The translations under genes and the position numbers were made by a program. This document shows, one piece after another, positions 20,166 through 38,664 of a stretch of 64,000 bases of DNA; within the stretch, counting starts at the first letter, position 1, and the number at the start of each line of letters is the position of its first letter. The notes beneath the pieces are model-generated. The model ran no database searches, was not told the DNA's origin, and saw only the letters and a program-made list of their open reading frames with translations. The DNA is from Desulfovibrio sp. A2 (GTDB lineage Bacteria > Desulfobacterota > Desulfovibrionia > Desulfovibrionales > Desulfovibrionaceae): assembly GCF_000226255.1 (NCBI RefSeq), contig NZ_AGFG01000029.1, forward strand, positions 1 to 64,000. Direction: 5' to 3'.

Positions 20166-20441
20166 TTACAACCCCAGCACGGCCAGCACGGCCAGCCGCA
20201 AATCCTGCACGCTTTCGGCCCGGATGATGGCGTCTGCCTGGTCGTAGGTAATGGTGTTCAGGTCCAGCGGTTCCGGCTGCGGCGGTGCGGACGCCGCCAG
20301 CCACGAGCCGTCCGGCTGCAACAGCGCGCCCGGCGCGGGGCGCTGCTCCATCACTTCCACCGCACCGCCGGGCAGGGTGTGTTCCAGCCCGGCCGCCACG
20401 GCGTACAGCGCCGACGTTCCAACTATTCCGAAGGTCTGCAT
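20166..20441 (-). CDS. Small phage protein at the distal end of the tail-fibre gene
   Basis: 91 residues; last gene of the virion cassette. The start ATG at 20441 overlaps the last base of the tail-fibre stop codon, so translation is probably coupled. It has no signal peptide or membrane helix and contains a Pro/Ala-rich centre. Genes in this position often encode tail-fibre assembly factors or small structural proteins; I do not recognise the sequence. Confidence 0.7.
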   Translation of the reverse strand: MQTFGIVGTSALYAVAAGLEHTLPGGAVEVMEQRPAPGALLQPDGSWLAASAPPQPEPLDLNTITYDQADAIIRAESVQDLRLAVLAVLGL

Positions 20442-22798
20442 CAGAAGGCCCTCCGTACTTTCACGCGCGCCCTGGTGGCCGCGTAGGTCATGGAAGAAAG
20501 GTCGCTTCCCCACCAGAAGTGCCCGGTGTAGGTGCGCAGCCGGATGAGCGACTGGTTCGCGGCCTTGGTCATCACGCCCATGTACTGCGATCCGGTCCAG
20601 CACAGGCCGCAGGGCACCCAGTAATTGGGAGCCGAGGTCGTGTCGTACCCTTCCACCACGAACTCCCCGAGCACGGGCGTGCCCAGCGGATTGTCCATGA
20701 CATAGGTGGTGCTGGCGGCCAGCGCGTTGCCGCCGTTCAGCGGCACCACGGCCTCCACCCCCGGCGCGAAGGGCGTGACCGCCGCCACCGCCCCGCCGCT
20801 CACCACGGCCTTGCCCACGTACACCCGCTGCATCTGGGCCCCGTCGGCCCGGCGCATGATGTTTTCCGGCGGGCTGTACCAGTCCTCGTCGAAGATGGGC
20901 ACGAACTCCATCATGCCCACATACTCCCGCCCGGAGTTCAGGCACTCCACCTCCAGCACGTCGCAGTCCACCGGGGCGGCGAAGAGGCGGCGCTTGCGCT
21001 CGTTGGCGGACCACGTGGCCCCGGTCACGCTGTCCACCGTGGTCTGAACGCCGTTGTGCGTGACCTTGATGTTCCAGGCGCGGGGAATGGCCAGCGCGTC
21101 GTTCTCGCACACCATCTCGTAGCCACGCACACGGCGCTTGCGGCTCATGGTCAGCCGCCACCACCCACTGGTGACGCCGCTGGCCGTGTACCAGGCCTGA
21201 TTGACGGCGTTCCCGTCCAACGCCTTCCACGCCGGGGAACCGCCCCCCGCGTATTCGCTGCTGGCGGCCACCGTGCCCCACTTGCCGGTGTACCCGGAGT
21301 AGTTGCCGGGTTCGGCAACCCCGCGCCGGGCCGCGCCATATTCGGGCGGCGTCTCCGTGGCCCCCAGCGAAAGCGCGCCCGTGTCGGGGGTGCGCTCCAC
21401 ATACAGCCACTGGGTGGCCGCCGCCGCGGGCAGGGTGACGGAGAGGTTGGCGGTGATTTCCGACGCCACGCTGACGCCGCCGTTGCCGAAACACGCGGCG
21501 AACGGCGCGGCCGGGTCGGCCAGCAGGGTCACCACCAGCCCGGAGAAGGACAGAAAGTCCGGCAAGGCCAGATCATGGAACGGCGGGGCCATGGGCGACT
21601 TCATGCGGCAGCGCAGGATGGTCTGGGGCTGCTTGGCCTCGGCCCCGGACAGCCGGATGGCGTCCAGCGCGGCCAGCACGTCGGTCAGGTCCACGGGCGC
21701 GGCGCTCATGGGCGCATGGTACGCCTTGATGCACGACACCACGGCCACGTTGCGGGGGCGGTTTTCGCTGGCGGTGGGCACCACGGCGGAGGCGTCAAAG
21801 CCGCCAACCCCGCCTGCCGTGCCGCTGGCTGTGCCGGAGATGGCCACCCCGGTGGCCGCCCCCGTGAACGCGCCGGAAGGCGCAGACCCGGCGGAAGCAA
21901 GGCGTATGGTGCCGCAACTGCCGGTGATGTTCCGGATGGCGTCGCCCTGCGCGCTGCCCGCCGCGCGCCCCGCATCCACCCCGCGTCCAAGGTCCGCACC
22001 GCGCCGGAACTCGCCGCGCAGGTCAGGCAGGGTGGCGGAAAGGGCCAGCGCATCGCCGGTCAGGTAGGCCACCAGTTCGGGATACGCTTCCTTCGTCACC
22101 TCCTGCCCGGCGCACAGCAGAAAGCCCACCGGCACGGTGTGCACCGGAAAGTCCAGAATAGCCCCGATGGGCACGAACGCGGCGGACGCCAAAACCTCGT
22201 TCCGCGCATCCGCCACGGCCTGATCCACGATATCGCGAGCGGCCTCCGCCTGGGCCAACGCCACTTCCGCGTCACCGCGCGCCGCCTCGGCCCCGTCCCG
22301 CGCGGCTCCGGCGTCCGTGGCCCGGGCCTCGGCATTCAATGCCGCCATCTCGGCACGGCCCACGTTGGCGGCGATGCCCGCCAGCAGTTCGTCGGTGCGC
22401 GTGGCCTGGTCGGTCAACGGCACCTTGACGCAGCGGCCCACCTCTTCGCGCAATTGCTGGGCCATCAGCGTCAGCCGGTCAAAGCTGCGTTCCAGCATTT
22501 CCGCGTCCAGCACGCCGGTGTTGCGCAGGTCCATCTCCTGCGTGAAGGGCTGGTCCAGCCACAGGGTAAGCCGTTCACCCGCGCCCACCATGCCGGGTAT
22601 GGCAGTCATGCGGCCCCCGCCGCCGTGCAAGGCGGCGACGGCGTAGTCCGTGCCGTACGCCAGCACCCTGTCGCCGCCGACGCCGGTCACCACGGCCCGC
22701 ACGTCCTCGGGCCGGTGGAACGGGAAGGTCACGGGCCATTCCGTCTGCACGCCGTCCCCGGCGTACTGCTCGACGGTAGTGGTCGATACGATGGTCAT
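20441..22798 (-). CDS. Phage tail fibre/collar protein with discoidin-like domain
   Basis: 785 residues. The first 100 residues (TTTVEQYAGDGVQTEWPVTF) look like the virion-attachment part of podoviral tail fibres. A coiled-coil Ala/Glu segment follows (about 130-190), then a phage tail-collar domain (about 200-290, GAILDFP, LCAGQEV, TLPDLRGEF), and later an F5/8-type C (discoidin)-like region (about 470-600, WKALDGN, ...GWWRLTM) that would bind surface carbohydrate. It is the receptor-binding protein of the particle. AAGGAG lies 9 bases upstream of the ATG. The reading frame is intact. Confidence 0.85.
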   Translation of the reverse strand: MTIVSTTTVEQYAGDGVQTEWPVTFPFHRPEDVRAVVTGVGGDRVLAYGTDYAVAALHGGGGRMTAIPGMVGAGERLTLWLDQPFTQEMDLRNTGVLDAEMLERSFDRLTLMAQQLREEVGRCVKVPLTDQATRTDELLAGIAANVGRAEMAALNAEARATDAGAARDGAEAARGDAEVALAQAEAARDIVDQAVADARNEVLASAAFVPIGAILDFPVHTVPVGFLLCAGQEVTKEAYPELVAYLTGDALALSATLPDLRGEFRRGADLGRGVDAGRAAGSAQGDAIRNITGSCGTIRLASAGSAPSGAFTGAATGVAISGTASGTAGGVGGFDASAVVPTASENRPRNVAVVSCIKAYHAPMSAAPVDLTDVLAALDAIRLSGAEAKQPQTILRCRMKSPMAPPFHDLALPDFLSFSGLVVTLLADPAAPFAACFGNGGVSVASEITANLSVTLPAAAATQWLYVERTPDTGALSLGATETPPEYGAARRGVAEPGNYSGYTGKWGTVAASSEYAGGGSPAWKALDGNAVNQAWYTASGVTSGWWRLTMSRKRRVRGYEMVCENDALAIPRAWNIKVTHNGVQTTVDSVTGATWSANERKRRLFAAPVDCDVLEVECLNSGREYVGMMEFVPIFDEDWYSPPENIMRRADGAQMQRVYVGKAVVSGGAVAAVTPFAPGVEAVVPLNGGNALAASTTYVMDNPLGTPVLGEFVVEGYDTTSAPNYWVPCGLCWTGSQYMGVMTKAANQSLIRLRTYTGHFWWGSDLSSMTYAATRARVKVRRAF

Positions 22799-22849
22799 TG
22801 TGGTCTCCTTGCGTGTCGATGACACCCCGCGCCGGGGCGGGCGCGCTCT

Positions 22850-23362
22850 CTAGGTGTCCAGCAGTCCGTGCGTGCCCCGCCCCGCGTTGCCGATGATCAT
22901 GCCGGTGCGCCAGCCCTGCCGCGTGCGCGCCCACGGGTCGTCGGCCATGGCCTGCAACAGCGATGCGCTGCTGTCCGCCCCGGCGGCCTGGTATTCCAGG
23001 GCGCGCTGCCGCCGTTCCGATTGCCTGCGCACGTCCAGCACGTCGGACTCGGCCGCCGTGGACTGGTCCTGCAAGACATCGAGGGCGCTGCCCGAGCCCG
23101 CGTCCATGCCCGATGCCGCCAGCAGCGAACGCATGCCCGCCTGCTGCGCGCGCGACTGGCGCTTCAGGGCTCGCTCCGTCCGTTCGGCATCCAGCTTCGT
23201 TTCCTCGGCCTGGTAGCGGGCCTGCGCCGCCGCATTGCGCTGGGTGGCCGCCTGGTATTCCTTCTGGGCCTTGCTCGTCCGCGCGCTGTGCTCCCCCTCC
23301 AGCAGCGAGTAGCCGCCCTGGATGATTGCGGAAGCGACGAGCGCTTCGGTCACGCCGCACAT
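22850..23362 (-). CDS. Phage internal virion protein, T7 gp14-like
   Basis: 170 residues: a short hydrophobic N-terminus (MCGVTEALVASAIIQGGYSL) followed by a long Ala/Gln/Glu-rich coiled coil. This shape and the position between the DUF2833 gene and the tail fibre match internal virion protein B of podoviruses, which forms part of the DNA-ejection channel. The GGAGGAG ribosome-binding site is strong. The call rests on architecture and order more than on motif identity. Confidence 0.65.
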   Translation of the reverse strand: MCGVTEALVASAIIQGGYSLLEGEHSARTSKAQKEYQAATQRNAAAQARYQAEETKLDAERTERALKRQSRAQQAGMRSLLAASGMDAGSGSALDVLQDQSTAAESDVLDVRRQSERRQRALEYQAAGADSSASLLQAMADDPWARTRQGWRTGMIIGNAGRGTHGLLDT

Positions 23363-23381
23363 GGTGCTCCTCCTGTGGTGG

Positions 23382-24062
23382 TTACGGTGTTTCCGGAATG
23401 GCACGGGCCAGGGGATGGTTGATAAAGGGATGGAACGGCGCGCCGTCCCGCCCCAGCGGCGCGGGGCGAGCCGCCACGGCAAAGCCGCACCGCGCCAGCC
23501 AGCGGGCCGTGGCGGGCCGTTCCTCCAGCGCCGGGGCGTGGATCATGTTCACCAGGCACGGCCAGGCGGCGCGCATGCGCGCCGCGAACAACGGCCCCAG
23601 CCGGGCCAGCGCCCTGCCCTCCGCGTCCAGTTCCGGGGTGCCGAACAGCCACGGCGCGGCCACACCCGACACTCCCGACAGGCCAGACAGGCCAGACAGG
23701 CCGGGATACGGCCTCGCGCCAAACAAGGCCACGCACCGCCCCCCGCGCAGCACCGCCCAACGCATGGGCGACAGGGCGAAGGCCCGCGCCGCCTCGGCCA
23801 TGGCCCCGCGCGGACCCAGGGCCTCCAGTTCCGCCCGGTCGCGCGGGCGCAGGTCGGGCAGCACCTCGCGCAGATGCCCGCGCCGCGCCGGAACCACGGT
23901 GAGCCGGGTACGCCGCCCGTCGCCGCCGGTACGGGCGAAGCCGGTGCGGGCGAAGCTGGTGAGGACAGATGCGCGCGGGGCATGCGAAGGGCATTCGCAA
24001 GGGGATGCGGCTGGCCGCGCCCATGGGGAGGCCGTGGCCATCGGAGAGGGATGCGCGCTCAT
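23382..24062 (-). CDS. DUF2833 (T7 gp13-like) internal virion protein
   Basis: 226 residues with a GNAT-like fold region (about 50-200), including 'PMRWAVLRGGRCVALFG' and 'FHPFINHP', as in the DUF2833 family to which T7 internal virion protein A belongs. The start codon overlaps the stop of the tail-tube B gene (ATGA, 24059-24062). An in-frame nine-base repeat encodes GLSGLSGLSGVSG in the middle of the domain; the family does not usually carry it, so it looks like a recent local expansion. Confidence 0.75.
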   Translation of the reverse strand: MSAHPSPMATASPWARPAASPCECPSHAPRASVLTSFARTGFARTGGDGRRTRLTVVPARRGHLREVLPDLRPRDRAELEALGPRGAMAEAARAFALSPMRWAVLRGGRCVALFGARPYPGLSGLSGLSGVSGVAAPWLFGTPELDAEGRALARLGPLFAARMRAAWPCLVNMIHAPALEERPATARWLARCGFAVAARPAPLGRDGAPFHPFINHPLARAIPETP

Positions 24063-26137
24063 GCCTCGCCCACCTCCACTTCGCTGATCACCGCCAGCAC
24101 CGTCAGCGGCAACGGGTCGTCCTGCCGGATATGCAGCCCGCCCTGGGTGCCCAGGCGCGCGTCCAGGGTCACCTCGCGGTCGCCGTCGAAGAGCGGCAGC
24201 GCCTGGCCCGGCGGGTCCTGCGCGGTGCGGAACAGCACCTCGCGCTGGTGGTCCGCGTCCGGCCCGGCCTTGAACCCGGACGAGCGGTACAGCCGCACCC
24301 GCGCCCTGCCCACCCGGCGCACCCGGCCCTGGGTAGGGCCGTCGCCCGCCACGAATTCCTGCGTCACCGGGGCAAGATCGCTGGCGAAAGCCAGCCCCGC
24401 GTGGATGACCGACGCCGGGCGGTCCAGTTCGATGCGCCCGCCGCTGACGGTGCGCGGCGGGTGCACCCAGCCGTCGGCCAGGATGGACACCTCGCGCCCC
24501 TCCAGATGTTCCAGCCCGCCCAGCGCGGCCACGGGCGGCCCGTCATACGACAGGCCGGAATCCACGAAGAACGCCCGCGCCGGGGTGTCCGCCTCGAAGG
24601 CCGGATCCAGCCGTTCGATGTACCGCCGCTGCGCGCCGTCCACCTCGCGGCGCACCACCAACCACAGCTCGTCGCCGCAGGCCGGGTCGGACGGAGCACC
24701 CGGCACCACGCACAGCGCCTCCACCGCGCCGTCGGTCTCGTGGCGGTGCCAGCCCGCCACCTGATGCTCGGCGATGAGGGTAAGCCCGGCCATGGAGCCG
24801 TCGTCCATGGCGCACCACACCACCGAATGGGGCGACTGCTGGTAGGCCCAGTCCACGATGGTGCGGCCGCGCAGCATGTGCTCGGCCAGGATGGTCTGGT
24901 CCGCGCCGGAATAGCCGTCCACGTCCAGGCTGTAGCGAAAGTCGCGCACCGCGCGCCCCCCGCGCTGCACGGCCAGCACCCCGTCGCCCACGGCCAGGGG
25001 CGGCAGCTCGGCCGACCCGCGCGCCGACTGGAATTCCAGCAGGCACGACAGGGGCGAGAACGGCTCGCTGCCCTGCCCGGACAGGGTCCATTCGCCGCCG
25101 CCGGTGCCCACCAGCAGCTTGCGGGCGGGCATCATCCAGCGCACGGCGCTGACCGTTTCCGAGGCGATGGTCACGGTGACGGCGTCGTCGGTCTGGAGCG
25201 GGCGCGAGACGTCCATGTTCTCGTAGCAGCCGGTGCGGCTGGCCCAGATGGTCTGCGGATGCCCGCGCGACCCGGCGAAACACAGCCGTTGCTGCCAGAA
25301 CTGCACCGACGAGGGGTAGTCGTCCTCGCCCTCGAAGGGGTTGCGGTGTTCGGGCGGGCCTTCGGCGAAGTCGGGCGCGCGCCCGGTGTCGGCATAGGTC
25401 TCGCCCGTGGCGGCGGTGCCCAGCAGGCCGTACACCGACGCCCCGCCCCCGGCCTTGTAGACGCGGTATTCGCTGGCCCCGTCCACCGCGTTCCAGGCCA
25501 GGTTCACGGCGGAGCCTTCCGCCGGGGTTCCGGCGGTAACGACCAGTTCCGCCGTGGGCAGGCCTTCCTCGCCCGTGTCCACGGACACGGCGGTGACCAC
25601 GTAGCGGTGCTGGCGCGACCCGGACGGCGCGCCGGTTGCGCGCAGCCCCGTGGGCGTGCCCACGCGCGGGCCGAAGTTCACCGGCACCAGCCGCCAGTCG
25701 GCGTGGCCGTGGCGTTCCAGCTTGCGCGGGGCGGCGTGCGGCGTGACCAGGTAGAGCACGTCGGCCGACTGGCACCAGCGCAACGTGGGCAGGTGGTCCG
25801 CCGCGTAGGGGGTCTGCACTTGCACGGGCGCGCCCCCTTCGGCCAGCACCAGCCCGCCGCGCCACCACACCCGCATGCGCTCCGGCGCGAATTCCAGCAC
25901 GTAGGCCTGCTCCTCGTTGAACACGAAGGGGACGAGCCGGGGCGGCGCGCTTTCGTCGGCGCACGGCCCCATGAAGCGCAACCCCGGACGCCGGAAGGCC
26001 GGGCCGTGCGGATGCAGCAGCATGTTGCGCAGCACGCGGCAGCCGCTGGCGTAGCGGGCCTGGTCGCCGCGCGCGGCCATGAGGGGCGACAGTTCGCCCG
26101 CGTTGAAGCTGTTCTGGATCAGGGTGGTGCGGGCCAT
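24059..26137 (-). CDS. Phage tail tubular protein B
   Basis: 692 residues from the ATG at 26137. The N-terminus (IQNSFNAGELSPLMAARGD) and the 'RNMLLHPHGPAFRRPGL' block are the hallmark of podoviral tail tubular protein B/nozzle proteins (T7 gp12 type). A fibronectin-III-like insert lies at about 165-235. The protein would form the end of the short tail through which DNA leaves. The reading frame is complete and no internal stop is seen. Confidence 0.85.
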   Translation of the reverse strand: MARTTLIQNSFNAGELSPLMAARGDQARYASGCRVLRNMLLHPHGPAFRRPGLRFMGPCADESAPPRLVPFVFNEEQAYVLEFAPERMRVWWRGGLVLAEGGAPVQVQTPYAADHLPTLRWCQSADVLYLVTPHAAPRKLERHGHADWRLVPVNFGPRVGTPTGLRATGAPSGSRQHRYVVTAVSVDTGEEGLPTAELVVTAGTPAEGSAVNLAWNAVDGASEYRVYKAGGGASVYGLLGTAATGETYADTGRAPDFAEGPPEHRNPFEGEDDYPSSVQFWQQRLCFAGSRGHPQTIWASRTGCYENMDVSRPLQTDDAVTVTIASETVSAVRWMMPARKLLVGTGGGEWTLSGQGSEPFSPLSCLLEFQSARGSAELPPLAVGDGVLAVQRGGRAVRDFRYSLDVDGYSGADQTILAEHMLRGRTIVDWAYQQSPHSVVWCAMDDGSMAGLTLIAEHQVAGWHRHETDGAVEALCVVPGAPSDPACGDELWLVVRREVDGAQRRYIERLDPAFEADTPARAFFVDSGLSYDGPPVAALGGLEHLEGREVSILADGWVHPPRTVSGGRIELDRPASVIHAGLAFASDLAPVTQEFVAGDGPTQGRVRRVGRARVRLYRSSGFKAGPDADHQREVLFRTAQDPPGQALPLFDGDREVTLDARLGTQGGLHIRQDDPLPLTVLAVISEVEVGEA

Positions 26138-26139
26138 GG

Positions 26140-26742
26140 CTACCTCGCCGTCAGCCAGGGGTTCAGTTCCACGGGGTCGGACGCGCCCTCGGCGGCGTCG
26201 GCCACGCGGGCCGCGTCCAGGGCATCGCCGAAGCGCTGGAGCATGGACTGCTCCAGCCGCGTGCTGTTCATGAGCGGCACGGCCAACGCGGCGGCCAGGC
26301 GGCGGGCCAACGCCTCGACGAACAGCGCGGGAAAGCGGGCCGGGTCGGTGACGCGCACGGTCAGCACCGCCTCTGCCGGGGCCGCGTCGGTGTACAGGGT
26401 GCGCGCCTCCACCACCTCGAAGGGCTGCGAATCGCGCAGGCGGCGCACCCGCAGGCAGTCGCCCGGCAGACGATAGGCCCAGGCGAAGCCGAAGGGCGGC
26501 ACCGCCGCCAGCGGGGCCAGCGAGGAGTAGCGGGTGGCGAAATTCCAGTGGTGGCATTCCAGCAGTTCGTCGCGCGCCTCGGCGTAGTAGCGGGCGCACA
26601 GGTCCGCCTCGCGCGAGGGCTGGTCCAGGGCCACGATTTCGGGCGCGCCCAGGTAGCGCAGGGCCTTGTTGCAGACGGAGACCTCGCTGGTCATGACGGA
26701 ACTGGTGGCCGCGCCGGGGGCGGAACTGGCGAGGGCGCTCAT
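26140..26742 (-). CDS. Phage tail tubular protein A
   Basis: 200 residues. The region from residue 20 (VCNKALRYLGAPEIVAL...ARYYAEARDELL, with the aromatic HHWNFA block) matches the T7 gp11-like tail tubular protein A family, the ring that joins the portal to the nozzle. Its start overlaps the stop of the upstream gene (ATGA). A second in-frame Met at residue 17 could be the true start. Confidence 0.85.
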   Translation of the reverse strand: MSALASSAPGAATSSVMTSEVSVCNKALRYLGAPEIVALDQPSREADLCARYYAEARDELLECHHWNFATRYSSLAPLAAVPPFGFAWAYRLPGDCLRVRRLRDSQPFEVVEARTLYTDAAPAEAVLTVRVTDPARFPALFVEALARRLAAALAVPLMNSTRLEQSMLQRFGDALDAARVADAAEGASDPVELNPWLTAR

Positions 26743-27332
26743 GACCGCCCCCTGCCGCGCGGGCGGCCCGGGTTCGATTCCACATCCTCCGTCGCCGCCC
26801 GCTGCCGTTCGCGCAGGTGGCGGGCCATGGCCCGGCGCATCTCCGCGCTGGGCGGCGCGGCGGGCACGGCCCGTTCTGCCGGTTTCGCCAGTTCCGCCGG
26901 TTCTACCTGCCCGGCCTGCCCGTTCCCGGCAGCCGTACAGCCGGAACCGGCGGCATCGGCGGGGGCAGGGGGAACAGGGGAAGCGGGGAGAGCTTCCGCC
27001 CCGCTGCCCTGCCCTTCGGCGGCGCGCAGCATGCGGCGCAGGGTGGCCTCGTCGGTGGCCGGGTCAAAGGCCACCCCCAGCAGGGCCAGCCGGGCGCGCA
27101 GGGCCGCCCGGCGGAACCGGCGCACGTCGTCCGCCGTGGGAGGGGCGCACGGTTCCGCCGGAGCGGGAAGAACGGTGGCTGCCGCCCCCCTGGTGCTTCC
27201 CTGCATGGGGTCCTCGTTCACGGCCTGGGCCGCGCCGCCGGCCATTGCGGGCGTGTCGACAGGCGCTTCGGTCGCAGCGCCGGTGGCCGTTCCTGTGCCC
27301 GCTCCATGGCCATCACGAATGTCATCGCTCAT
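26739..27332 (-). CDS. Phage-cassette hypothetical protein, Ala/Pro-rich
   Basis: 197 residues, low complexity at both ends, with a helical centre (DDVRRFRRAALRARLALLG) and a basic C-terminus. The start at 27332 has GGAGGTG upstream. It is coupled to tail tube A by a 4-base overlap. I do not recognise a family; the position between head and tail genes suggests a head-completion or accessory virion protein. Confidence 0.65.
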   Translation of the reverse strand: MSDDIRDGHGAGTGTATGAATEAPVDTPAMAGGAAQAVNEDPMQGSTRGAAATVLPAPAEPCAPPTADDVRRFRRAALRARLALLGVAFDPATDEATLRRMLRAAEGQGSGAEALPASPVPPAPADAAGSGCTAAGNGQAGQVEPAELAKPAERAVPAAPPSAEMRRAMARHLRERQRAATEDVESNPGRPRGRGRS

Positions 27333-27406
27333 AAGGGCACCTCCGTGCCGTGGCCCCCGCCCGTCTCCCATCGTGGGGACGGACGGGGGGTTGCTGTGCG
27401 GCCGCG

Positions 27407-27805
27407 CTAGCGCGGCAGGTAGTCGAAGACCACGTCCACGGTGCCGGAGGCCCCGGCGTCGTCGGTGCCGATCACCACGCGCACGTGGCGGCGGCAGTCG
27501 GAGGGCAGGGGCAGACGGCCCAGCACCTCGCCACCGGCCCAGGTGCGCCCGCCGGGGGCGCTGCGCCGGAACGACACCGGCAGCGCGGCGAAGGCCACGC
27601 CGTCGTCGCTGTCCTCCAGCATCAGGGTAAGACTCTTGCCGTCACCCAGGGTGACCGGCGTGGCGGCCACGGCCGCCACCTCGGCCGCGCCCATCAGCGC
27701 GCCCGCGCGCTGCGGGCCGCCGTTGCCCACGGCCTGGGTGTTCTTGGGCAGGGCCTGCCCTTTGGCCAGGTGTTCGCCGTGCACGCGCAGCATGTGTCCG
27801 TACAT
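27407..27805 (-). CDS. Small phage head protein (unrecognised)
   Basis: 132 residues from the ATG at 27805, which has AAGGAG six bases upstream and is preferred over an ATG eight codons earlier. The body is beta-rich with Gly/Asp turns (LEDSDDGVAFAALPVSF, VVIGTDDAGASGTVDVVF), as in capsid decoration or head-stabilising proteins. It follows the major capsid gene directly, a common place for such proteins. An imperfect 12-bp hairpin lies downstream at about 27354-27390. Confidence 0.65.
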   Translation of the reverse strand: MYGHMLRVHGEHLAKGQALPKNTQAVGNGGPQRAGALMGAAEVAAVAATPVTLGDGKSLTLMLEDSDDGVAFAALPVSFRRSAPGGRTWAGGEVLGRLPLPSDCRRHVRVVIGTDDAGASGTVDVVFDYLPR

Positions 27806-27881
27806 GCGTCTCTCCTTGTTCATCGGCACCGCCGGGCGGTGTCCGTCATGGTGTTGCGGGGCAATGCGCGCCGAAGCGCCG

Positions 27882-28796
27882 CTACAGGGTCAGTGCCTGT
27901 TCGGTGCCGTCCTTGAAGTTGTAGGAAGTGACGATCTCGATGCCGTTCCAGTGGGTGATCTGGCGGTCCATGTCCTTGCCGCCGGGCACGATCTGCAGCG
28001 CGCCGGCCTTGTAGCGGTACAGCAGGTTGCGCGCCCGCTCGTGCATGAACAGGTAGGTGGAGCCGGAGGTGGCGCGCACCTGGGCCAGCATGTCGTCGAT
28101 CATGGCCTCGGTGGGCACGTGGTCACGGCTCACGTTGACGATGGCCGCCACGCTGTGGGGGTTGGCGATCTGGATGCCCAGGTACGACTTCAGCCGCAGG
28201 CCGAAGACCAGCACGCCCTGGTACTGGCCGCTGGTGGCCTTGTAGAGGTCGCCGCCGTTGATGGGCTGCACGTCCAGCACGGTGCCCTGCTTGAAGCATT
28301 CCGGGCTGTACAGGCCGCAGGTCTCGCCCTCCACGAAGCGCACGGCGATCATGGAGTAGCAGCCGCCCGCGGCGGCCCCGGCATCGGTGACCTGGCCGTG
28401 GTCCAGGGCGTAGGCGCGGAAGTTGTCGTAGATGATGCGCTGTTCCGCCGACATGCCCGAGCGGCGCAGCACCTTGGGCATCTTCTTGGTGAAGTACTTC
28501 TCCTTGCCGCCGAACATGCGGGCGGTGTCTTCCGGCACCTCGATCTCGCCACCCAGGATGGACAGGTCCACCTTGCGCAGGTTGCTGGTCACCTCCACCG
28601 AGGGCAGGGGGGCGTTCATGTCCACCCAACCCGCGCCCTGCACTTCTTCCACGTCCTCGTACATGTTCCACAGGCCGTGGCTGGCCTCTTCGAAGGGGAT
28701 GATGCCCAGGATGGGGGCCTCTTCGGTCAGCCCGTCCACCTGCTGCGGCTGCGTGGTCGCCTGTTCGTTGGTCAGGTCCTTCAGCGTCTTGCCCAT
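27882..28796 (-). CDS. Phage major capsid protein
   Basis: 304 residues, close to the size expected of an HK97-fold podoviral coat protein, and placed directly after the scaffold gene as in all related phages. The sequence is typical of the family that includes P-loop-free, beta-rich coat proteins with a long N-terminal arm and 'KMPKVLRRSGMSAEQRI' helix. GGAGG lies 9 bases upstream of the ATG. The frame is intact, which suggests maintained function. Confidence 0.8.
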   Translation of the reverse strand: MGKTLKDLTNEQATTQPQQVDGLTEEAPILGIIPFEEASHGLWNMYEDVEEVQGAGWVDMNAPLPSVEVTSNLRKVDLSILGGEIEVPEDTARMFGGKEKYFTKKMPKVLRRSGMSAEQRIIYDNFRAYALDHGQVTDAGAAAGGCYSMIAVRFVEGETCGLYSPECFKQGTVLDVQPINGGDLYKATSGQYQGVLVFGLRLKSYLGIQIANPHSVAAIVNVSRDHVPTEAMIDDMLAQVRATSGSTYLFMHERARNLLYRYKAGALQIVPGGKDMDRQITHWNGIEIVTSYNFKDGTEQALTL

Positions 28797-28815: not shown

Positions 28816-29472
28816 TTAGCGTTTGGCGAACACGACGGTCCGCAGGAATTCCTCGGTGCTCATGGCCTCGCCGCGCGCGCCCGCCGGGCCGGACCCCGCG
28901 CCCAGGGAGTCCTCGCCCATGCGCTCGCCCACGAGGGCCATCAGTTCGGCGAAGGCGGGGTGGTTGCCGAGCCCGGCGCGGACCAGGGGGGTCAGGCGCC
29001 CCTCCATGCGGCCGTCCAGGGTACGCACGGCGCGACGGGCCGCGTCGATGCGCTCGTCGTAGCGGCCCTTCCACAGGGTGCGCAGGCCCGCCTCGCAGCC
29101 GTCGGCGGCAAGGCCGCCCGCCGCCTCGTGCTCGGCCACATAGAAATCCACGGCGGCGCGGGCCTGTTCCGGGGTCAGCCCCTGGGCGGCGCACAGCGTG
29201 CGGAAGCGGTCCGCCGCCGCCGTATCCACCGTGAGGTGGGACGGCAGATCGAAGACGTAGTCGGCGGCGGTGCGGGCGGACGGGGTGTCCGGACCGCCGG
29301 GAGTGCCCACACCGTCAGGGGCGGCGGTACCGGCGGGTTCGATGGGTCCGGAGCCGGGCGCGCCCGAGGGAGCGGTCGCGCCGGAAAGCAGTGTCGCGGG
29401 AGCGCTGCCCGCCGCCGTGCCCGTGGCTGCGGGGGCGGCAGGGGATGTGGCCGGGGCCGATGTCTGTTCCAT
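28816..29472 (-). CDS. Phage capsid scaffolding protein
   Basis: 218 residues. The first 70 residues are Ala/Pro/Gly-rich, then a helical segment (about 70-165) and a C-terminal helix (MSTEEFLRTVVFAKR). This layout and the location immediately before the capsid gene are typical of podoviral scaffolds. GGAGG precedes the ATG. It would guide procapsid assembly and then leave the shell. Confidence 0.7.
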   Translation of the reverse strand: MEQTSAPATSPAAPAATGTAAGSAPATLLSGATAPSGAPGSGPIEPAGTAAPDGVGTPGGPDTPSARTAADYVFDLPSHLTVDTAAADRFRTLCAAQGLTPEQARAAVDFYVAEHEAAGGLAADGCEAGLRTLWKGRYDERIDAARRAVRTLDGRMEGRLTPLVRAGLGNHPAFAELMALVGERMGEDSLGAGSGPAGARGEAMSTEEFLRTVVFAKR

Positions 29473-29545: not shown

Positions 29546-30040
29546 TCAGTCCCGCCGTCCGCCGGGGTTCAACTGTTCCCCGGCCCAGCGCCGCGCGCCC
29601 TCCAACTGGATGCGCAAAAGGCTGGCCGGGTCGGCCATGGCGATTTCCGCCGTGCGGTCGCGGGCGTAGTCGTAGAGGGCCGCGGCCCCGTGGATGGCGG
29701 GCTCGGGCCGGGACAGGCGGTCGTTGGCGCAGGCGGCGTCCAGCCAGTGGCGCAGCACGCGCACCCCGGCCCCGCCCCCGGCGCGCAGCACCGCCGCGAG
29801 GTCGTCAAGGTAGGCGGCAAGGCGGGTGCGCTCCTCGCGTCGGGTCCGGCGGGCCTCTTCCACCTCGGGGCCGAGCAGGTCCGTCAGCAGATCGGGGAGC
29901 GGCCCGTCGGAGCCTTCGGCATCCGCCACGTCGCTGCGGGCCAGCAGGTCGGCCAGCACCGCGTCCGGGTGCGGCAGGGTTCCCGGCTGCCGCGCCCGGT
30001 CAGCCGCATGGGAAGGAACGGAGGTGTCGTGGACGCTCAT
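29546..30040 (-). CDS. Bbp19-like phage protein
   Basis: 164 residues with a compact helical C-terminal half (VLRHWLDAACANDRLSRPEP to LLRIQLEGARRW). Its size and place between the portal and scaffold genes resemble Bbp19-type proteins of Bordetella phage BPP-1 relatives. The start overlaps the portal stop (ATGA at 30037-30040), so the two are translationally coupled. The function of the family is unknown. Confidence 0.6.
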   Translation of the reverse strand: MSVHDTSVPSHAADRARQPGTLPHPDAVLADLLARSDVADAEGSDGPLPDLLTDLLGPEVEEARRTRREERTRLAAYLDDLAAVLRAGGGAGVRVLRHWLDAACANDRLSRPEPAIHGAAALYDYARDRTAEIAMADPASLLRIQLEGARRWAGEQLNPGGRRD

Positions 30041-31806
30041 GCGCGCGCCTCCGAGCCCCGGCCGCCACCGGCCGTCGGAGTCCTTGCGTCTGCGGAGTGG
30101 GTCGGAGCGGCAGGCAGCCCGGACGACGATGACGCCGCCAGGGTTTCGCTCGCGCCGCCCCCGCCGACCTCACCGTCCCCGCCGCCTGCGCTCCCCGCGC
30201 CAAGGGCCTTCGCCAGCGCCTGCACGGCCCCGGCGGCGCTGCGGGCCATGCCCGCCACCTGGCCCGCCTCGCGCGCGGCCCGCAGCCGGGCCACCTCGGC
30301 ATCGGACCGCACCACCTTGGCGGGCACCCCGCCGATGGAGGCCAACTCGTCCACGGCCTGCTCGAAGTCGATCTTGTCCAGCACGCCGGGCGCGGTGGCC
30401 GACAGGGCTGTGACCTCGGCCGCGAACTGGCGGATGGACTGCGCCGCCCCCATCCGCTGGGCCTGGGCCAGGGCCGAGACGTATTCCACCCGCATCTCCA
30501 GCCCTTCTAGTTCCGGCGGGTTGGGGGGCAACGCCCCGGCCCGGCGCAGGATGCCGTAGGTGCGCGTCAGCAGCGGATCGAGCAGTTCCGTCTGGTGCCG
30601 CTCGATGACCGGGCCGAGCATGAGCAGCTTTTCCTGCCCGCGTTCGGCCACCTCCGCCGCCGTGACGTTGGAGCGCCCGTCGCCCGTGAACATCAGGAAG
30701 AGATCGTTGAAGAATCCTTCCCGCACGGCCTTGCGCACGTCCTCTATCTTGCGCGTCACCGCCGCGATGTCCGGGTTGATCTGGTAGAGCGGGGCCACTG
30801 CCTCCGGCTGGCCCGGCGCCACGTAGTTCTGCGCGCCGGGGATGAGGTTGAGCCGCTGCTTGAACCCGGTGGGCACGCGCATGGGCGGGTTGACCACCTT
30901 GTGGATGGCCAGCAGCTGGCTGCGGGCCATCTCTTGCAGCATCTTCACGTCGGGCAGCACGTCCATGCCCGGCGAGCGGCCGTACACGTCGCTGCCGGTG
31001 ACGTCCCAGCGCGCGGTAAGGTGCGGGAACTCCTCGAAGCCGCCTTCGTGCAGCAGATCCCCGGCCGCGCCGTCGGCCTCGAACACCAGCGACTCGAAGG
31101 GCATGTGCAGGTTGCCGTCGCGACCGGGGCTGCGCACGGCGCGGGGCCGCACAAGGTGCACCACCTCCACGTGGCGGTTGGGCTCGTTGCGCAGCATGCG
31201 CCGGGTGCCCGTGGAAAGGCGCGCCTCTCCGTAGCGTTCCGCCAGTTGGCGGGCGGTCATCAGCATGCGGCGGACCACGGTGTCCACGCGGCCCGCCGCA
31301 TTGCAGGCCCAGGAGAATTCGCCGCAGGTCAGCGCGGCGAACCGGGTAAGCCGTTCCGGGTCCACCTCCTGGTAGAGGTCGGCGGAGCCGAAGGCGGCCA
31401 GTTCGGTGTAGAGCGCGTGGCTGGCCTGGTAGAAGTTGCTGCGGGCCAGCGCCCAGTACAGGCGCTGTTCCACGGCATCCAGCCAGCGGCGCGCCGGGCC
31501 GGATTCCGCGTCGGCCCCGTCGGCCAGGCGCAGGCGAAACCACGGGCGCGCGGGCGAGGTAAGCCCCCCCTGCATGCCCGCCGCCAGGATGCGCACGGCG
31601 CGGGTGGCCGTGGCGTCGATGACGCGTCCGCCGCGCGCGTCCTGCTGGTCGGAGGCCGGGGCGCGCAGCGGGTCGCGCCCATGCATGCGCCCGCGCCGGG
31701 GCAGGACGTAGACGGCGATGTCGCGCCACGCCTCGTCCCACGGGGATCGCTGCCGCTCCAGAAAGCCCACCGCCTCGCGGGCGTCGCGCAGTCGTTGGCT
31801 GGTCAT
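30037..31806 (-). CDS. Phage portal (head-to-tail connector) protein
   Basis: 589 residues, matching the Head_tail_connector/portal family of T7-like and BPP-1-like podoviruses. Family features include an N-terminal YVLPRRG block, 'RAVRILAAGMQGGLTSPARPWFRL', 'LYTELAAFGSADLY' and the 'MARSQLLAIHKVVNPP' helix; a Gly/Ser-rich tail follows from about 545. It would form the dodecameric ring at one capsid vertex through which DNA is packaged and ejected. The frame is intact. Confidence 0.9.
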   Translation of the reverse strand: MTSQRLRDAREAVGFLERQRSPWDEAWRDIAVYVLPRRGRMHGRDPLRAPASDQQDARGGRVIDATATRAVRILAAGMQGGLTSPARPWFRLRLADGADAESGPARRWLDAVEQRLYWALARSNFYQASHALYTELAAFGSADLYQEVDPERLTRFAALTCGEFSWACNAAGRVDTVVRRMLMTARQLAERYGEARLSTGTRRMLRNEPNRHVEVVHLVRPRAVRSPGRDGNLHMPFESLVFEADGAAGDLLHEGGFEEFPHLTARWDVTGSDVYGRSPGMDVLPDVKMLQEMARSQLLAIHKVVNPPMRVPTGFKQRLNLIPGAQNYVAPGQPEAVAPLYQINPDIAAVTRKIEDVRKAVREGFFNDLFLMFTGDGRSNVTAAEVAERGQEKLLMLGPVIERHQTELLDPLLTRTYGILRRAGALPPNPPELEGLEMRVEYVSALAQAQRMGAAQSIRQFAAEVTALSATAPGVLDKIDFEQAVDELASIGGVPAKVVRSDAEVARLRAAREAGQVAGMARSAAGAVQALAKALGAGSAGGGDGEVGGGGASETLAASSSSGLPAAPTHSADARTPTAGGGRGSEARA

Positions 31807-31816: not shown

Positions 31817-32047
31817 TCACAATCCCAGCAGCGTCTTGCGCTGGGTCTCGGGCGCGCCGGGCACGCCCAGCGCCCCGGTCAGGATGGTGCCCTGCCTGCC
31901 CCGCGCGCGGAGCGCGGCGCGGCGGGCGTCATCGCGCGCGTCCTCGATGGCCTTGGCCTCTTCCTCGGCCACCTCGGCGGCGGCCGGAGGAGCGGGCGGT
32001 GCCGGGGGATCGGGAGCCTTGTACGATTTGCCGCCTCCGCCACCCAT
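31817..32047 (-). CDS. Small conserved podoviral protein (first gene of the virion operon)
   Basis: 76 residues: a Gly-rich start (MGGGGGKSYK), a Pro/Ala run, a charged helix, then RQGTILTGALG...KTLLGL. Small proteins with this 'TILTG...KTLLG' ending are commonly found just before portal genes in podoviruses. AAGGAGG lies 7 bases upstream of the ATG. Its role is not known. It opens the virion operon, whose promoter should lie in the gap to its right. Confidence 0.7.
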   Translation of the reverse strand: MGGGGGKSYKAPDPPAPPAPPAAAEVAEEEAKAIEDARDDARRAALRARGRQGTILTGALGVPGAPETQRKTLLGL

Positions 32048-32583
32048 GGGAATGCCTCCTTGCTGGGGTGCGCGGGCGTTGCGCGGGGCCGGACCATCCG
32101 GCCGCCGCGGCCGCGCCGCGTGAGCAGGTGGTACACCCCGGTTTTCGGGCGAATGCGCCCGCAAGGGGGTTGCAGGGGGGGCGGAAGGGTGTACGGGCCA
32201 TGCGCGGGCATGGTGCGGAAAATCCGCGCCGGGCGGCACGGAAGAAAAATGGGGCATGGACGAAAAATGAGCCGTGGACGGAAAGTCGGCGGGACGGCGA
32301 AGGGAATGGACGGGAAGGACAATGGGCGGAGAATGCTTCCGGCGGGTTAAGAAGAACCGCAAGAGAACCGATACAAGGTCATGACCATGCCGGAGCGGTT
32401 CCCGCCGTTGGCGGCGTCCAGTCGGCATGGCCCGGCATGGTGCGGCGCGCACGAAACGGGCCGGGCGCGGCGCATTCCCCTGCCGCCCCGCCCAAACAGG
32501 AGCTTTCCTGCCTTGGCCGCGCCCCGCGAATCCCGTTGGCTGAACAGGCGTTGCTACACGTCCGCGTATCTTTCGAGGCTGGA
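32048..32583. other. Gap between virion operon and exported-protein genes
   Basis: 536 bases from which the virion operon is presumably transcribed leftward. It contains a degenerate tandem array (32238-32326) and a direct repeat AGAACCG at 32353 and 32364. I cannot place a convincing sigma-70 promoter on the minus strand. No gene is supported. Confidence 0.45.
32238..32326. repeat. Five-unit degenerate tandem repeat upstream of the virion operon
   Basis: Units begin at 32238, 32260, 32278, 32294 and 32310. Each starts ACG(G) followed by a purine-rich core and ends in GG, with lengths of 22, 18, 16, 16 and 17 bases. The spacing is not exact but the pattern is clear by eye. It may be a regulator- or terminase-binding array or simple slippage-derived sequence. 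Confidence 0.5.
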
Positions 32584-35118: not shown

Positions 35119-35144
35119 CCAGGGCGGGGCTGCCGCCGCGTTCC

Positions 35145-35653: not shown

Positions 35654-35712
35654 CTGCACACGTGGCGATACGCCATGCAACACCATCCGAAGGATTCACG
35701 GTAAACACCACC

Positions 35713-36654
35713 ATGCGCGGCGACAACGTTCGGCGTGTACCTTGCCTCTCCATATATTTCCGCACTGTAACCACATTCCGGCTGCTGGCTTCGCTGCTGG
35801 CGCTGGCTCTGCTTACCGTTCCCACCGTCACCGAGGCGGAGCGCGGCGACATGCCCGACACGCTGTCCGGCCATGGCCGGGCGGCCGTTGACGGCGCTGG
35901 CGACGCACGCCGCGTGGCCCTGCACGGCTCCGGTCCGCAGGCCCAGGCCAGCGACGACGGCTGGATCGACATGCCCGGCGGCTCGCGCCCGACCTACATC
36001 GGCATCCACGGCGGCACCGTGCCGGTCAGCCTGCTGGCCACGCGCGGCGGCAACACCATGGTGGCCATGGTGGGTGAAACCGGCAGCGACTTCCTGTACC
36101 TGCTGCGCGGCGGCCGTACTCCGTCCGCCGCCAACGGCAGCGACCAGGCCGAGGCCGCCTCGGAACTGCTGGCTGCGGCGAGAATCTCCGAAAGCGGCCG
36201 CACCGCGACCACCGAAGCCCTGGCCGCCACGCGCCAGCCGCAGGCTCCCGGCGCGGCAACCGCCGCCATGCCGGAAGCCGGGGCCAACGGCACCGTGCTG
36301 TTCGCCTCCACCCCTGAAGGCAGCGTGCCGGTCATCTACACATCCGGCCGCTCTTTCGAGTCGCTGGACATCGCCCTGGCGGACTGGACCCCCTTCGGTC
36401 TCACCGAAGACCACGTGGTCACCGACGGCAAGGGCAAGATCGTGGCGAACAAGAAAAACGCCAAGAAGGCCAAGCAGGTGGCCCGGTCCACCAAGCCCGG
36501 CCAGGCCGACCAAGCGGACAAGGCGGCAAAGGCCGCCCGCAACGGCAAGCCCCGGACCGAGACGGGCAAGGCCGACAAGGCTCCGCGCCTGCCCCGCAAC
36601 GAAAAGGGTCCCGTGAGCATTCAGGACGCCTCCGGCGGCATGCTGGCCGCCTGA
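35713..36654 (+). CDS. Exported protein of unknown function with Lys/Ala-rich tail
   Basis: 313 residues. Basic residues then a hydrophobic stretch (about 25-43) form a signal peptide. The middle holds two short similar segments, 'YIGIHGGTVPVSLLATRGGN' and 'VLFASTPEGSVPVIYTSG', which may be a repeated small domain. The last 70 residues are rich in Lys, Ala and Asp and may bind nucleic acid or the cell envelope. The chosen ATG lacks a close ribosome-binding site (AAGGA is about 18 bases away), and an earlier GTG at 35662 is an alternative. I do not recognise a family. A strong terminator follows. Confidence 0.65.
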   Translation: MRGDNVRRVPCLSIYFRTVTTFRLLASLLALALLTVPTVTEAERGDMPDTLSGHGRAAVDGAGDARRVALHGSGPQAQASDDGWIDMPGGSRPTYIGIHGGTVPVSLLATRGGNTMVAMVGETGSDFLYLLRGGRTPSAANGSDQAEAASELLAAARISESGRTATTEALAATRQPQAPGAATAAMPEAGANGTVLFASTPEGSVPVIYTSGRSFESLDIALADWTPFGLTEDHVVTDGKGKIVANKKNAKKAKQVARSTKPGQADQADKAAKAARNGKPRTETGKADKAPRLPRNEKGPVSIQDASGGMLAA

Positions 36655-36692
36655 TCCCAACCCGTTTCCGCCCGGTTCCCCTCTGCCCCTCC

Positions 36693-36724
36693 GACGCCCC
36701 CGCCCAGCGGGGGCGTCTTTGTTT
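36693..36724 (+). terminator. Rho-independent terminator
   Basis: An 11-bp perfect stem (GACGCCCCCGC with its complement) closed by CCA and followed by TTTGTTTG, 38 bases after the stop codon. It separates the exported-protein genes from the holin operon. Confidence 0.88.
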
Positions 36725-36914
36725 GCGCGACACGCGCGCCCGTTCACCCTCGCGGTTCCGGGAGCATGGCCGCGCCCCCTTCGGACGGCCGCGCTCCCCC
36801 TCCGCCACCCCGCTGCGACGCATCCAGGGGCGCGGGGCCGGTGTATGCACGTTCTCTCGCGCCACGCACGCCGGGCATGCCGCCCGGCGTCAACGAGCGC
36901 GGAAGGAGCACGGC

Positions 36915-37451
36915 ATGGACTGGAAAGGCATAGGCGTCACGGTGGCCCGCGTGGCCCCCTTGCTGGGCGCGGCGCTGGGGGGCCCCGTGGGCGCGGTGGC
37001 CGGTGCGGCCGGGGCGCTCCTGGGGTCCGCCCTGGGCGTCGCGCCCGAGCCGGAAGCGGTGGCGGCGGCCCTGGGCGACCCGCAAACCCTGACCGCCCTG
37101 CGAGAACTGGAAGTGCGCGAACGGGAACGCCTGCTCGACTGGCAGGCCGAGCAATTGCGGGCCGAACTGGACAACACCCGCGACGCCCGCGCGCGAGAGG
37201 TGGCCCTGGCCCGCGCCGGACACGGCGGAGCCTGGGTGACCGGGCTGGTGGCGCTGGTGGTGGTGGCGGGGTTCTTCGGCATGCTGCGCGTGGTGCTGGA
37301 GCAGCCCTCGGTCAGCGAACCGGCCCTGCTGCTGCTTGGTTCGCTGGGCACGGCCTTCGGCGCGGTGGTCAACTATTACCTCGGATCGTCGCTGGGGTCG
37401 TTCCGCAAGGACGAACTGCGCTCGCGCGCCGAAGGGGGCGGCGCGCGATGA
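36915..37451 (+). CDS. Three-TM holin of the GTA type
   Basis: 178 residues. A glycine/alanine-rich hydrophobic segment (about 12-45), a charged helix with the pattern 'TRDARAREVALARAG' (about 87-100), two further membrane helices (about 108-130 and 136-157) and the ending 'NYYLGSSLGSFRKDEL'. This is the layout of the 'holin of 3TMs, for gene-transfer release' family (PF11351 from memory), first described in the Rhodobacter gene transfer agent but also found in prophages. It would form lesions in the inner membrane. GGAAGGAG lies 6 bases upstream. It overlaps the next gene by four bases. Confidence 0.82.
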   Translation: MDWKGIGVTVARVAPLLGAALGGPVGAVAGAAGALLGSALGVAPEPEAVAAALGDPQTLTALRELEVRERERLLDWQAEQLRAELDNTRDARAREVALARAGHGGAWVTGLVALVVVAGFFGMLRVVLEQPSVSEPALLLLGSLGTAFGAVVNYYLGSSLGSFRKDELRSRAEGGGAR

Positions 37452-37792
37452 ACGGCCCAAACGGCCCAGGCGGTCAGGACGATGCCGCTACCGGTGGCGA
37501 GGGGTGGCGGCTGGACCGCCGGGTGGGGGTGCAGGCGCTGGCCGCGGCGGCCACGGCCTTTGCCGGTGCGGTGATGTTGGTCGCCACCGTGCAGGCCCGG
37601 CTGGATGCCATGGAGGCGCGCGCCGCCTCGCTGGACGGCGAGGTGCGCGCCGCGCGCGAGACCGCCGTGTGCGTGGCCCGCATGGACGAACGGCTGGCCG
37701 CCGTGCAGCGCGCGCTGGAGGACATGCGCGCCGATCTGCGCCGCCTGCGCGACGACGCGCGCGCCACCGCCACGGCGAAGGAGGCCCGATGA
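37448..37792 (+). CDS. Small membrane-anchored coiled-coil protein
   Basis: 114 residues: a Gly/Asp-rich start, one membrane helix (about 33-52), then a heptad-patterned coiled coil to the end (ARLDAMEARAASLDGEV...LRRLRDDARA). It overlaps the holin and terminase genes by four bases each (ATGA), so the three are translated together. Proteins of this shape sit beside holins in many prophages (XhlA- or spanin-like), but no lipoprotein partner or clear family motif is visible. Confidence 0.65.
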   Translation: MNGPNGPGGQDDAATGGEGWRLDRRVGVQALAAAATAFAGAVMLVATVQARLDAMEARAASLDGEVRAARETAVCVARMDERLAAVQRALEDMRADLRRLRDDARATATAKEAR

Positions 37793-38664
37793 CCGGAGAA
37801 GACATGCGGATGCCGGATCACCCCGCGCCCAGCGGGCACGCCGCCGCCCCACCAGGGCGGGAAATGGCCGCCCCCCGTTTGGGGGTGCGCCAGCGCCGCT
37901 TCGTCGAGGAATACCTGGTGGACATGTCGCCCGTGCGGGCGGCCGAGCGGGCCGGCTACGCGCCAGACCGGGCAGCCCGCACCGCCTCCCGCCTGCTGCG
38001 CAGCCCGGCCGTGCTGGAGGCGGTGGAGCAGGCCATGCGCCGCCGCGCCGCGCGCACCGAGGTGACCCAGGATCTCGTGGTGCGCGAACTGGCCGCCGTG
38101 GGCTTTTCGGTGATGACCGACCTGTGCCACTGGTCCGACGAAGGCGTGCGTCTGCGCGATTCAACGGATCTGTCGCGGGCTCAGGCCGCCGCGGTGGCCG
38201 AGGTGCGCGAGTCGTCAACGGCAAGGGGCGGACGCCCGGCGCGCGGTGAGCAGCCCGACGGCCCCGTGCGCGGCGGCGTGCAGGTGAAGCTGCACTCCAA
38301 GCTCAAGGCCCTGGAGATGCTGGCCAGGCACCTCGGCATGTTCGGGGTGGCAGCCGGGGGCCCCGGAACCTCCAGAACCGGGTGCAGTCCGGGCGGTGAC
38401 GCCCTGCCCGACGCCGACGCTCCGCCCCAGTTGCCGCCTGAACTGCGCGCCCGCATCGAGGAACTGTACCCCGGCCGCGCACGAGGTCACGCCGCCCTGG
38501 GGGGCGACGCCTGGAACGGCCGCCAGGGCACGGACGGAGATGACGACGACACGGACTGCTGCGAGGGCTGCACGGAAGACGATGACCGCGACGAGGCCGA
38601 CCCCGACAGCGGGGACCACGACGACAGCGGCGACTTCGATCCGACAACCCTTCGCTGCCCGTAG
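37789..38664 (+). CDS. Phage terminase small subunit
   Basis: 291 residues. The region from about 32 to 110 (RQRRFVEEYLVDMSPVRAAERAGYAPDRAARTASRLLR...VLEAVEQAM) is the terminase small subunit helix-turn-helix domain that recognises the packaging site; it continues with an oligomerisation helix and 'HSKLKALEMLARHLGMFG'. The C-terminus is extended by about 110 residues, ending in a very acidic Asp/Glu/Cys-rich tail. No large terminase (ATPase/nuclease) gene lies downstream or anywhere in the window. The start overlaps the upstream stop. Confidence 0.85.
   Translation: MTGEDMRMPDHPAPSGHAAAPPGREMAAPRLGVRQRRFVEEYLVDMSPVRAAERAGYAPDRAARTASRLLRSPAVLEAVEQAMRRRAARTEVTQDLVVRELAAVGFSVMTDLCHWSDEGVRLRDSTDLSRAQAAAVAEVRESSTARGGRPARGEQPDGPVRGGVQVKLHSKLKALEMLARHLGMFGVAAGGPGTSRTGCSPGGDALPDADAPPQLPPELRARIEELYPGRARGHAALGGDAWNGRQGTDGDDDDTDCCEGCTEDDDRDEADPDSGDHDDSGDFDPTTLRCP

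Follow-up and report, generated by a model that had tools for sequence, protein, structure and literature searches.

A podovirus-type gene set split into three chromosomal blocks of Desulfovibrio sp. A2 that probably works like a gene transfer agent

The genome of Desulfovibrio sp. A2 carries, on contig NZ_AGFG01000029.1 (here C56), the genes of a short-tailed phage particle distributed over three separate blocks. Two of them lie within the window, that is, the whole stretch of 64,000 nucleotides analysed, which corresponds to the first 64000 bases of the contig (126758 bases) in an assembly of 4.15 Mb and 83 contigs (G000). The first is an intact epsilon15/BPP-1-type head and short-tail gene set on the minus strand (20166-32047). 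The second, about 5 kb away on the plus strand (36915-38664), comprises a holin-like protein, a coiled-coil protein and a small terminase. The third, 10 kb past the window end at C56:73.9-76.3 kb, contains the large terminase. The proteins were assigned by PHROG, Pfam and NF profile searches, selection was measured as pairwise ratios of non-synonymous to synonymous divergence (dN/dS, or omega), synteny was examined by blastn and trees were built with FastTree. The features of the window are collected in Table 1.

The head-tail block is transcribed in the order phrog_831 protein, portal, 164 aa protein, scaffold, capsid, 140 aa protein, variable protein, tubular protein A, tubular protein B, internal virion protein, gp14-type protein, fibre and a small last protein. 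A preliminary description, made from the letters of the window, had called this set complete-looking, and the family matches obtained for portal, capsid, scaffold, tubular A and B, internal virion proteins and fibre bear it out. The portal is 37% identical to that of BPP-1, and its named relatives are found mainly in Desulfovibrio-type bacteria; among the best 25 of 179 matches in an annotated phage collection, the top ones reach 35-40% identity at 83-85% coverage, so the gene is not a recent copy of any phage in that collection. The capsid gave zero matches to PDB sequences at E 1. The 140 aa protein that follows it presumably occupies the position of the BPP-1 cement protein. A 908 aa frame (24059-26785), considered as one gene or as a fusion of tubular proteins A and B, was rejected, its first 216 residues being a chance frame over tubular A; in the region of overlap the omega of the chance frame, used as a frame control, is 2.3-3.8, against the 0.27-0.34 of the tubular A frame. 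The fibre has the highest omega of the block after the variable protein, a value that covers three genomes. Its F5/8 type C domain occupies residues 519-640, and the alignment with three related species covers only 365-399 of its 794 residues, which would suit an exchanged tip.

For the plus-strand trio, the earlier claims stand in part. The small terminase and the coiled coil are present, although the terminase starts near 37789 and not at 37336, while the designation of the first protein as a GTA-type holin rests on its look and place: phrog_1544, of unknown function, is its sole PHROG match and Pfam gave no family. Between the two blocks, three host-like genes had been described; one is a clear host enzyme, one belongs to no family and the third is a variable frame.

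The large terminase (C56:73923-75665, 580 aa) is on the same contig as the window and 35 kb away from the small terminase (38664 to 73923). The preliminary description had seen no such gene in the 64 kb, which is correct, and had proposed to look for it elsewhere in the genome; it lies among genes that look by eye like host genes, on a contig without any tyrosine integrase. It was reached in two steps. In a PF17289 search of 14 genomes, those of Halodesulfovibrio type (group g23) gave a gene (515 aa) close to their head-tail block, and its protein then located the copy of the present genus; PF17289 is matched by the g23 orthologues of the large terminase. The protein is a member of phrog_38 and resembles the T7 terminase model NF033889, under the cut-off of that model. 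An orthologue is found in all eight genomes of the genus (group g1, taken to be Nitratidesulfovibrio), the present one included, that of G002 being the second half only, at a contig end. In an alignment, the Walker A-type, Walker B, coupling and nuclease motifs (names that we assign from general knowledge) are kept in the present protein and in those of G001, G003, G006 and G007. Omega against four genomes is 0.22-0.25, and the surroundings are collinear in the three genomes compared (G003, G006 and G007). The large terminase of the genus also has an insert after the motif B region and before the coupling motif, variable in length and sequence, which the other aligned sequences lack. A small partner gene (75658-76293) overlaps its 3′ end; by eye it is GNAT-like, and Pfam and PHROGs gave no family for two copies, while a third reached E 0.0024. 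Once the PF17289 route had found the C56 gene, a particle devoid of terminase was no longer considered. Other routes were negative: PF03354, searched only in the own genome, matched the terminase of an unrelated HK97-type prophage on contig C24; phrog_2 gave prophage terminases and host ATPases, the latter by eye PhoH and a RecD-like helicase; PF03237 had no match in G003, G006 and G007; and the terminase of a related prophage, used as query in five genomes of the genus, had no match except on contig C15.

Table 1. Features of the window, with positions counted from its first base; omega is from pairwise comparison with related genomes of the genus.
Feature	Position	Strand	Family match and remarks	Omega
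Small protein (91 aa) closing head-tail block after fibre	20166..20441	-	no family match in PHROG or Pfam	
Tail (collar) fibre with F5/8 type C domain	20441..22825	-	phrog_523 E 1.9e-42; PF07484, PF00754	0.40-0.48
T7 gp14-type internal virion protein	22850..23362	-	phrog_418 E 1.1e-12	0.22-0.28
Internal virion protein	23382..24062	-	phrog_308 E 7.2e-18	0.33-0.34
Tail tubular protein B	24059..26137	-	phrog_376 E 7.7e-195, 650 bits (residues 217-907 of longer frame)	0.12-0.15
Tail tubular protein A	26140..26742	-	phrog_394 E 2e-48	0.27-0.34
Variable Ala/Pro-rich protein	26739..27371	-	no convincing family; most variable gene of the block	0.56-0.67
140 aa protein after capsid gene	27407..27829	-	95% identity in genus; 38-56% in g20, g21, g23, g2 and related loci	0.15-0.27
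Major capsid protein, epsilon15 gp7 type	27882..28796	-	NF045672 E 1.3e-42, 146 bits (cut-off 75)	0.13-0.18
Scaffold / protease-type protein	28816..29472	-	phrog_458, phrog_3742	0.36-0.42
Conserved 164 aa protein between portal and scaffold	29546..30040	-	no Pfam or PHROG family; gene order shared by other genera	0.27-0.41
Portal (head-tail connector)	30037..31806	-	PF12236 592 bits; solved relative 8ck0_A E 9.2e-114	0.19-0.23
Small protein, first gene of head-tail block (phrog_831 type)	31817..32047	-	phrog_831 E 7e-12	0.15-0.19
Shared upstream element, copy 1 (head-tail block)	32132..32212	-	CATGSCCGC-N67-GTGTA; expected 0.00 in window	
Variable frame between blocks	about 32.1-33.6 kb			
Host enzyme between blocks	33664-35118		PF01738	
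Protein without family between blocks	35662-36654			
Shared upstream element, copy 2 (holin block)	36765..36845	+	CATGSCCGC-N67-GTGTA; expected 0.00 in window	
Holin-like membrane protein	36915..37451	+	phrog_1544 E 1.4e-19; best matches 66-71% in 6 Halodesulfovibrio-type genomes	0.10-0.12
Membrane coiled-coil protein, coupled to holin and small terminase	37448..37792	+	35-43% in Halodesulfovibrio-type genomes	0.24-0.34
Terminase small subunit, 291 aa	37789..38664	+	PF03592 E 2.8e-26, residues 34-185	0.23-0.32

The blocks are conserved in place within the genus. The portal is present in five and the capsid in six of the eight Nitratidesulfovibrio genomes; G001 and G002, which lack both, are highly fragmented assemblies (810 and 820 contigs). 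By blastn, the window is collinear with G003 from 10.4 to 45.9 kb, with G007 from 16.1 to 48.2 kb, with G006 from 22.9 to 50.6 kb and with G005 from 22.0 to 39.7 kb, so that synteny reaches into both flanks in G003 and G007, and covers the block and the right flank in G006. Against these same four genomes, the dN/dS of the block genes is mostly 0.1-0.4, and 0.12-0.34 for capsid, portal, both tubular proteins and both internal virion proteins. Synonymous divergence is of similar size in these genes (0.13-0.81) and in the flanking host genes measured (0.24-0.76), and the block frames are open both in the window and in the compared orthologues. The intact frames had already been remarked in the preliminary description, which had named conserved synteny and purifying selection as the way to check its reading; both were found in the genus genomes compared. 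The pattern of the block genes is one of vertical descent under selection and not of decay. Two IMG/VR contigs (L017 and L019; 18.8 and 19.0 kb) align to the window from 20166 to 38954 and to 38922, respectively, and thus contain both window blocks with the intervening genes. Among the neighbouring genes, a TPR lipoprotein is close to the holin block in the window and adjoins that block in two listed g23 loci. Further to the right, two similar stretches stand in tandem (44566-49541): one encodes a sensor kinase with PAS domains (44566-47013), the other, at about 47.4-49.5 kb, its relative. In blastn against G007 and G006, the two cross-align at 65-68%.

The three blocks also have an upstream element in common. 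A sequence with the consensus CAYGsCsGC-N67-GTGTA precedes the head-tail block, the holin block and the large terminase, with strict matches in seven of eight sequences at the head-tail block (G007 has one mismatch), in eight of eight at the holin block and in four of four at the large terminase; G001 contributes a further strict match and G004 one with a mismatch. Along C56:1-104000 there are three strict matches, one per block, and no others. Two more own stretches, of 57 kb and 20 kb, which bring the scanned part of the own genome to 181 kb, contain no strict match, and neither does 400 kb of G007 outside the blocks, where two weaker matches occur. In the window scan, two matches were observed for 0.00 expected, while the looser CAYG-N72-GTGTA occurs five times for 0.83 expected. 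When the upstream regions were aligned with each other and compared with 400 random own segments, self-overlap being kept in the null, the score of the holin and large-terminase pair was reached by 0 segments, that of the phrog_831 and large-terminase pair by 3 and that of the phrog_831 and holin pair by 168. We interpret this putative element as a promoter or activator site that the blocks have in common. For Halodesulfovibrio-type genomes, no shared element of this form could be established; three of them have only a similar CATG...GTGTT/GTGATAG pair, spaced by 63-64 bp, ahead of the large terminase.

Related gene sets exist in other genera of the family. In Halodesulfovibrio (g23) and in a genus group that includes D. 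gilichinskyi (G199) and that we take to be of Maridesulfovibrio type (g33), the head, portal and large-terminase genes are split at other points. In g23, the large terminase was found in 10 genomes and the capsid in nine of those 10. The holin has a 66-71% match in six of the seven g23 genomes searched, and in the six g23 loci examined it is followed downstream by the coiled coil and the small terminase, the same trio being present in G144. In the five g23 genomes with both genes on one contig, a distance of 14 to 79 kb separates the capsid from the holin, and in G150 a sodium:alanine symporter lies between the large terminase and the portal. In g33, 17 genomes have the large terminase. The capsid search at a threshold of E 1e-10 missed this group, whose capsids were recovered by the family model in 13 of 13 genomes searched, 12 of them in one piece. 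The distance from capsid to large terminase ranges there from 12 kb to 1.1 Mb; in the four loci examined, the large terminase is followed by the small partner gene and the portal, and in the one locus for which frames were listed the rest resembles host genes. Scaffold, tubular or fibre matches accompany the g33 capsids in the seven loci outside G201 and in neither of the two G201 loci. Family-wide, the large terminase has a match in 65 of 288 genomes and the capsid in 50 of 288, counts that take in distant prophage copies (for instance in g17).

In a FastTree phylogeny of 124 of 125 large terminases (matches only, midpoint-rooted; the remaining sequence had no frame), one clade of 39 tips with a support of 0.984 unites six g1 sequences, 10 of g23, 17 of g33, that of D. 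cuneatus (G118), two copies of G133 and three IMG/VR contigs, of which one is nested in g23, one is nested in g33 and one is sister to g1. The branching between genera is weak (0.28 and 0.43; parent node 0.157). Such a single clade is compatible with one domestication; repeated capture of related phages may be an alternative.

The preliminary description had seen no integrase in 64 kb, and a search for the tyrosine integrase family PF00589 extends this to the whole of C56: the 12 matches of the genome are all on other contigs, and the compared stretches of G003, G006 and G007 have none either (serine recombinases were not searched). No replication gene was recognised among the block genes scanned, the remaining open reading frames of the window having been scanned in part. 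A complete phage matching the block genes, which would have refuted the GTA-like reading of the preliminary description, was not found elsewhere in the genome; the sole other relative seen is a diverged head module on C15 (G000:C15:30143-36016, L108), with a portal of 37% and a capsid of 46% identity and a phrog_2-type large terminase. Two stops, a TGA and a TAG, interrupt its portal match and give it the look of a decaying prophage, in contrast to the C56 blocks. The genome also holds an unrelated HK97-type siphoprophage (G000:C24:113000-132000, L107) with terminase, portal, protease and capsid genes.

Taken together, these observations support the split, GTA-like locus of the preliminary description, and make it probable that this is a domesticated podovirus in three chromosomal blocks, now working like a gene transfer agent (GTA). 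Traits by which GTAs are recognised are present: an origin from a tailed phage with intact structural genes, a location at several loci with vertical inheritance, both terminases, and no tyrosine integrase alongside. A contiguous genome with its own integrase, as a functional epsilon15/BPP-1-type phage has, is missing here. An epsilon15-type head holds about 40 kb of DNA. The genes span 55 kb in this genome and up to 1.1 Mb in relatives, and so more than such a head could carry together. With regard to descent, the best reading of the comparisons is that the domestication took place in an ancestor of several Desulfovibrionaceae genera and that the set has been kept as a dispersed GTA-like particle. 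We give somewhat better than an even chance to a fuller account, by which a single podovirus was domesticated in the ancestor of Nitratidesulfovibrio, Halodesulfovibrio, the Maridesulfovibrio-type genus and the D. cuneatus lineage, was later broken into at least two blocks at genus-specific points, has been maintained by more than 30 species as a particle that packages DNA, is co-regulated at least in Nitratidesulfovibrio, and has been filed as provirus-like contigs in a virus database. As for the mechanism, a host regulator would act on the shared element and turn on all three blocks together in a small subset of the cells; heads would assemble on the portal and would be filled by headful from chromosomal DNA by the terminase pair; the holin would help to lyse the cell, and the particles would deliver their DNA to relatives.

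Several observations weigh against a GTA-like particle, and some of them favour other explanations. Passages of PMC6854486 and PMC11841831 propose as a trait of GTAs a short small terminase without DNA-binding domain. The present protein is 291 aa long and covers PF03592 positions 4-131 of 141, a near-complete DNA-binding-type domain, and on this point the preliminary description needs correction; packaging may start from preferred sites, or the domain may be relaxed. In G142 and G150 all blocks lie inside about 20 kb, and size alone would be no bar to self-packaging there. The holin search had no match in G141, G118 and G133, and no endolysin was recognised among the block genes scanned. As regards the shared element, its pattern was derived from the same sequences in which it is counted, the orthologues are non-independent, and plain alignment backs two of the three upstream pairs, the phrog_831 and holin pair being no better than random. 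Against two near-identical IMG/VR contigs, dN/dS rises up to 0.76, from few changes, and the large-terminase frame of G004 (an assembly of 590 contigs) is without the coupling-motif stretch. Lastly, no gene for a large ejection protein separates the gp14-type gene from the fibre in the head-tail block. At that place a frame of 706 aa is found in the related prophage of G044 and one of 626 aa in G150 (weak endolysin match, E 0.0079). This difference speaks for the main rival, a domesticated particle kept for another purpose, for example a PBSX-like one that fills itself with host DNA and kills cells without delivering it. The fast evolution of the fibre, exceeded only by the gene at 26739-27371, also suits a part that meets varied targets. 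Both terminase subunits are nevertheless kept by purifying selection, and most of the genus has intact catalytic motifs, so that packaging is probably useful; yet PBSX packages too. On balance, a particle kept for another purpose seems unlikely.

A defective prophage or split remnant that is still decaying would explain the relatives in which genes are lost or broken: G144 has no capsid match, G201 (C1:1542084-1567961) has its capsid in two pieces about 25 kb apart and G143 (C7:185158-201713) its large terminase in two pieces about 15 kb apart, both as if split by insertion, and the C15 relative has stops in its portal match. In the genus, by contrast, the frames are open, omega is well under 1, the genes keep the same place across the compared genomes and the shared element precedes all three blocks; that blocks have been retained despite being unlinked also makes decay improbable. 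Even less can be said for a functional phage or satellite that only seems split through an unassembled or displaced part of the genome. Its case is that the assembly is a draft of 83 contigs and that relatives of the portal and the large terminase occur in many viral contigs; but G007, assembled as a single contig, has the same three-block layout, and the integrase matches of the own genome all lie away from C56, so that we consider it very improbable.

If a domesticated, GTA-like particle is indeed encoded here, it would show that unlinked terminase subunits do not prevent a GTA from persisting, and that such elements get filed as virus contigs, as with L017 and L019 in IMG/VR. With a gene set defined in three blocks and a control element common to them, in sulfate reducers among which are named strains such as Nitratidesulfovibrio liaohensis and N. 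vulgaris Miyazaki F, the GTA question becomes testable.

To our knowledge, few GTAs are known outside Alphaproteobacteria. Dd1 of Desulfovibrio desulfuricans, a GTA of the same broad bacterial group as the present host and among the oldest known, is reportedly known from DNA transfer experiments by Rapp and Wall in 1987. A literature survey at the level of listings returned no description of a three-block podovirus-type element like this one. A passage of PMC5701242 places putative GTA island genes between Ddes_0703 and Ddes_0715, and one in PMC6854486 gives the Dd1 small terminase as 125 aa and directly upstream of the large terminase; here, in contrast to the layout described there, the small terminase has 291 aa and lies 35 kb from the large one. 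According to a passage of PMC12946183 (2026), GTAs of this kind in other phyla still await identification of their gene clusters, a statement that contrasts with the putative Ddes genes named earlier in those two papers. With epsilon15/BPP-1-type podoviruses the present set shares the NF045672 capsid, the PF12236 portal and a T7-type large terminase; unlike them, it has no tyrosine integrase on the contig and no single contiguous genome, host genes lie between its blocks and its chromosomal place is fixed. The GTA of Rhodobacter capsulatus (RcGTA), as described in parts of PMC11409702 and PMC6854486, similarly has virion genes at several chromosomal loci and vertical inheritance, but its particle is siphovirus-like, whereas the window encodes epsilon15/T7-type portal, capsid and tubular proteins. 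The FpGTA of Faecalibacterium, by its description, belongs to a different phylum and differs in having two operons, with portal, capsid and both terminases together and a small terminase without obvious DNA-binding domain; like the present blocks, it combines podovirus-like head genes with a second operon (fibre and lysis genes) that in one strain lies about 125 kb off.

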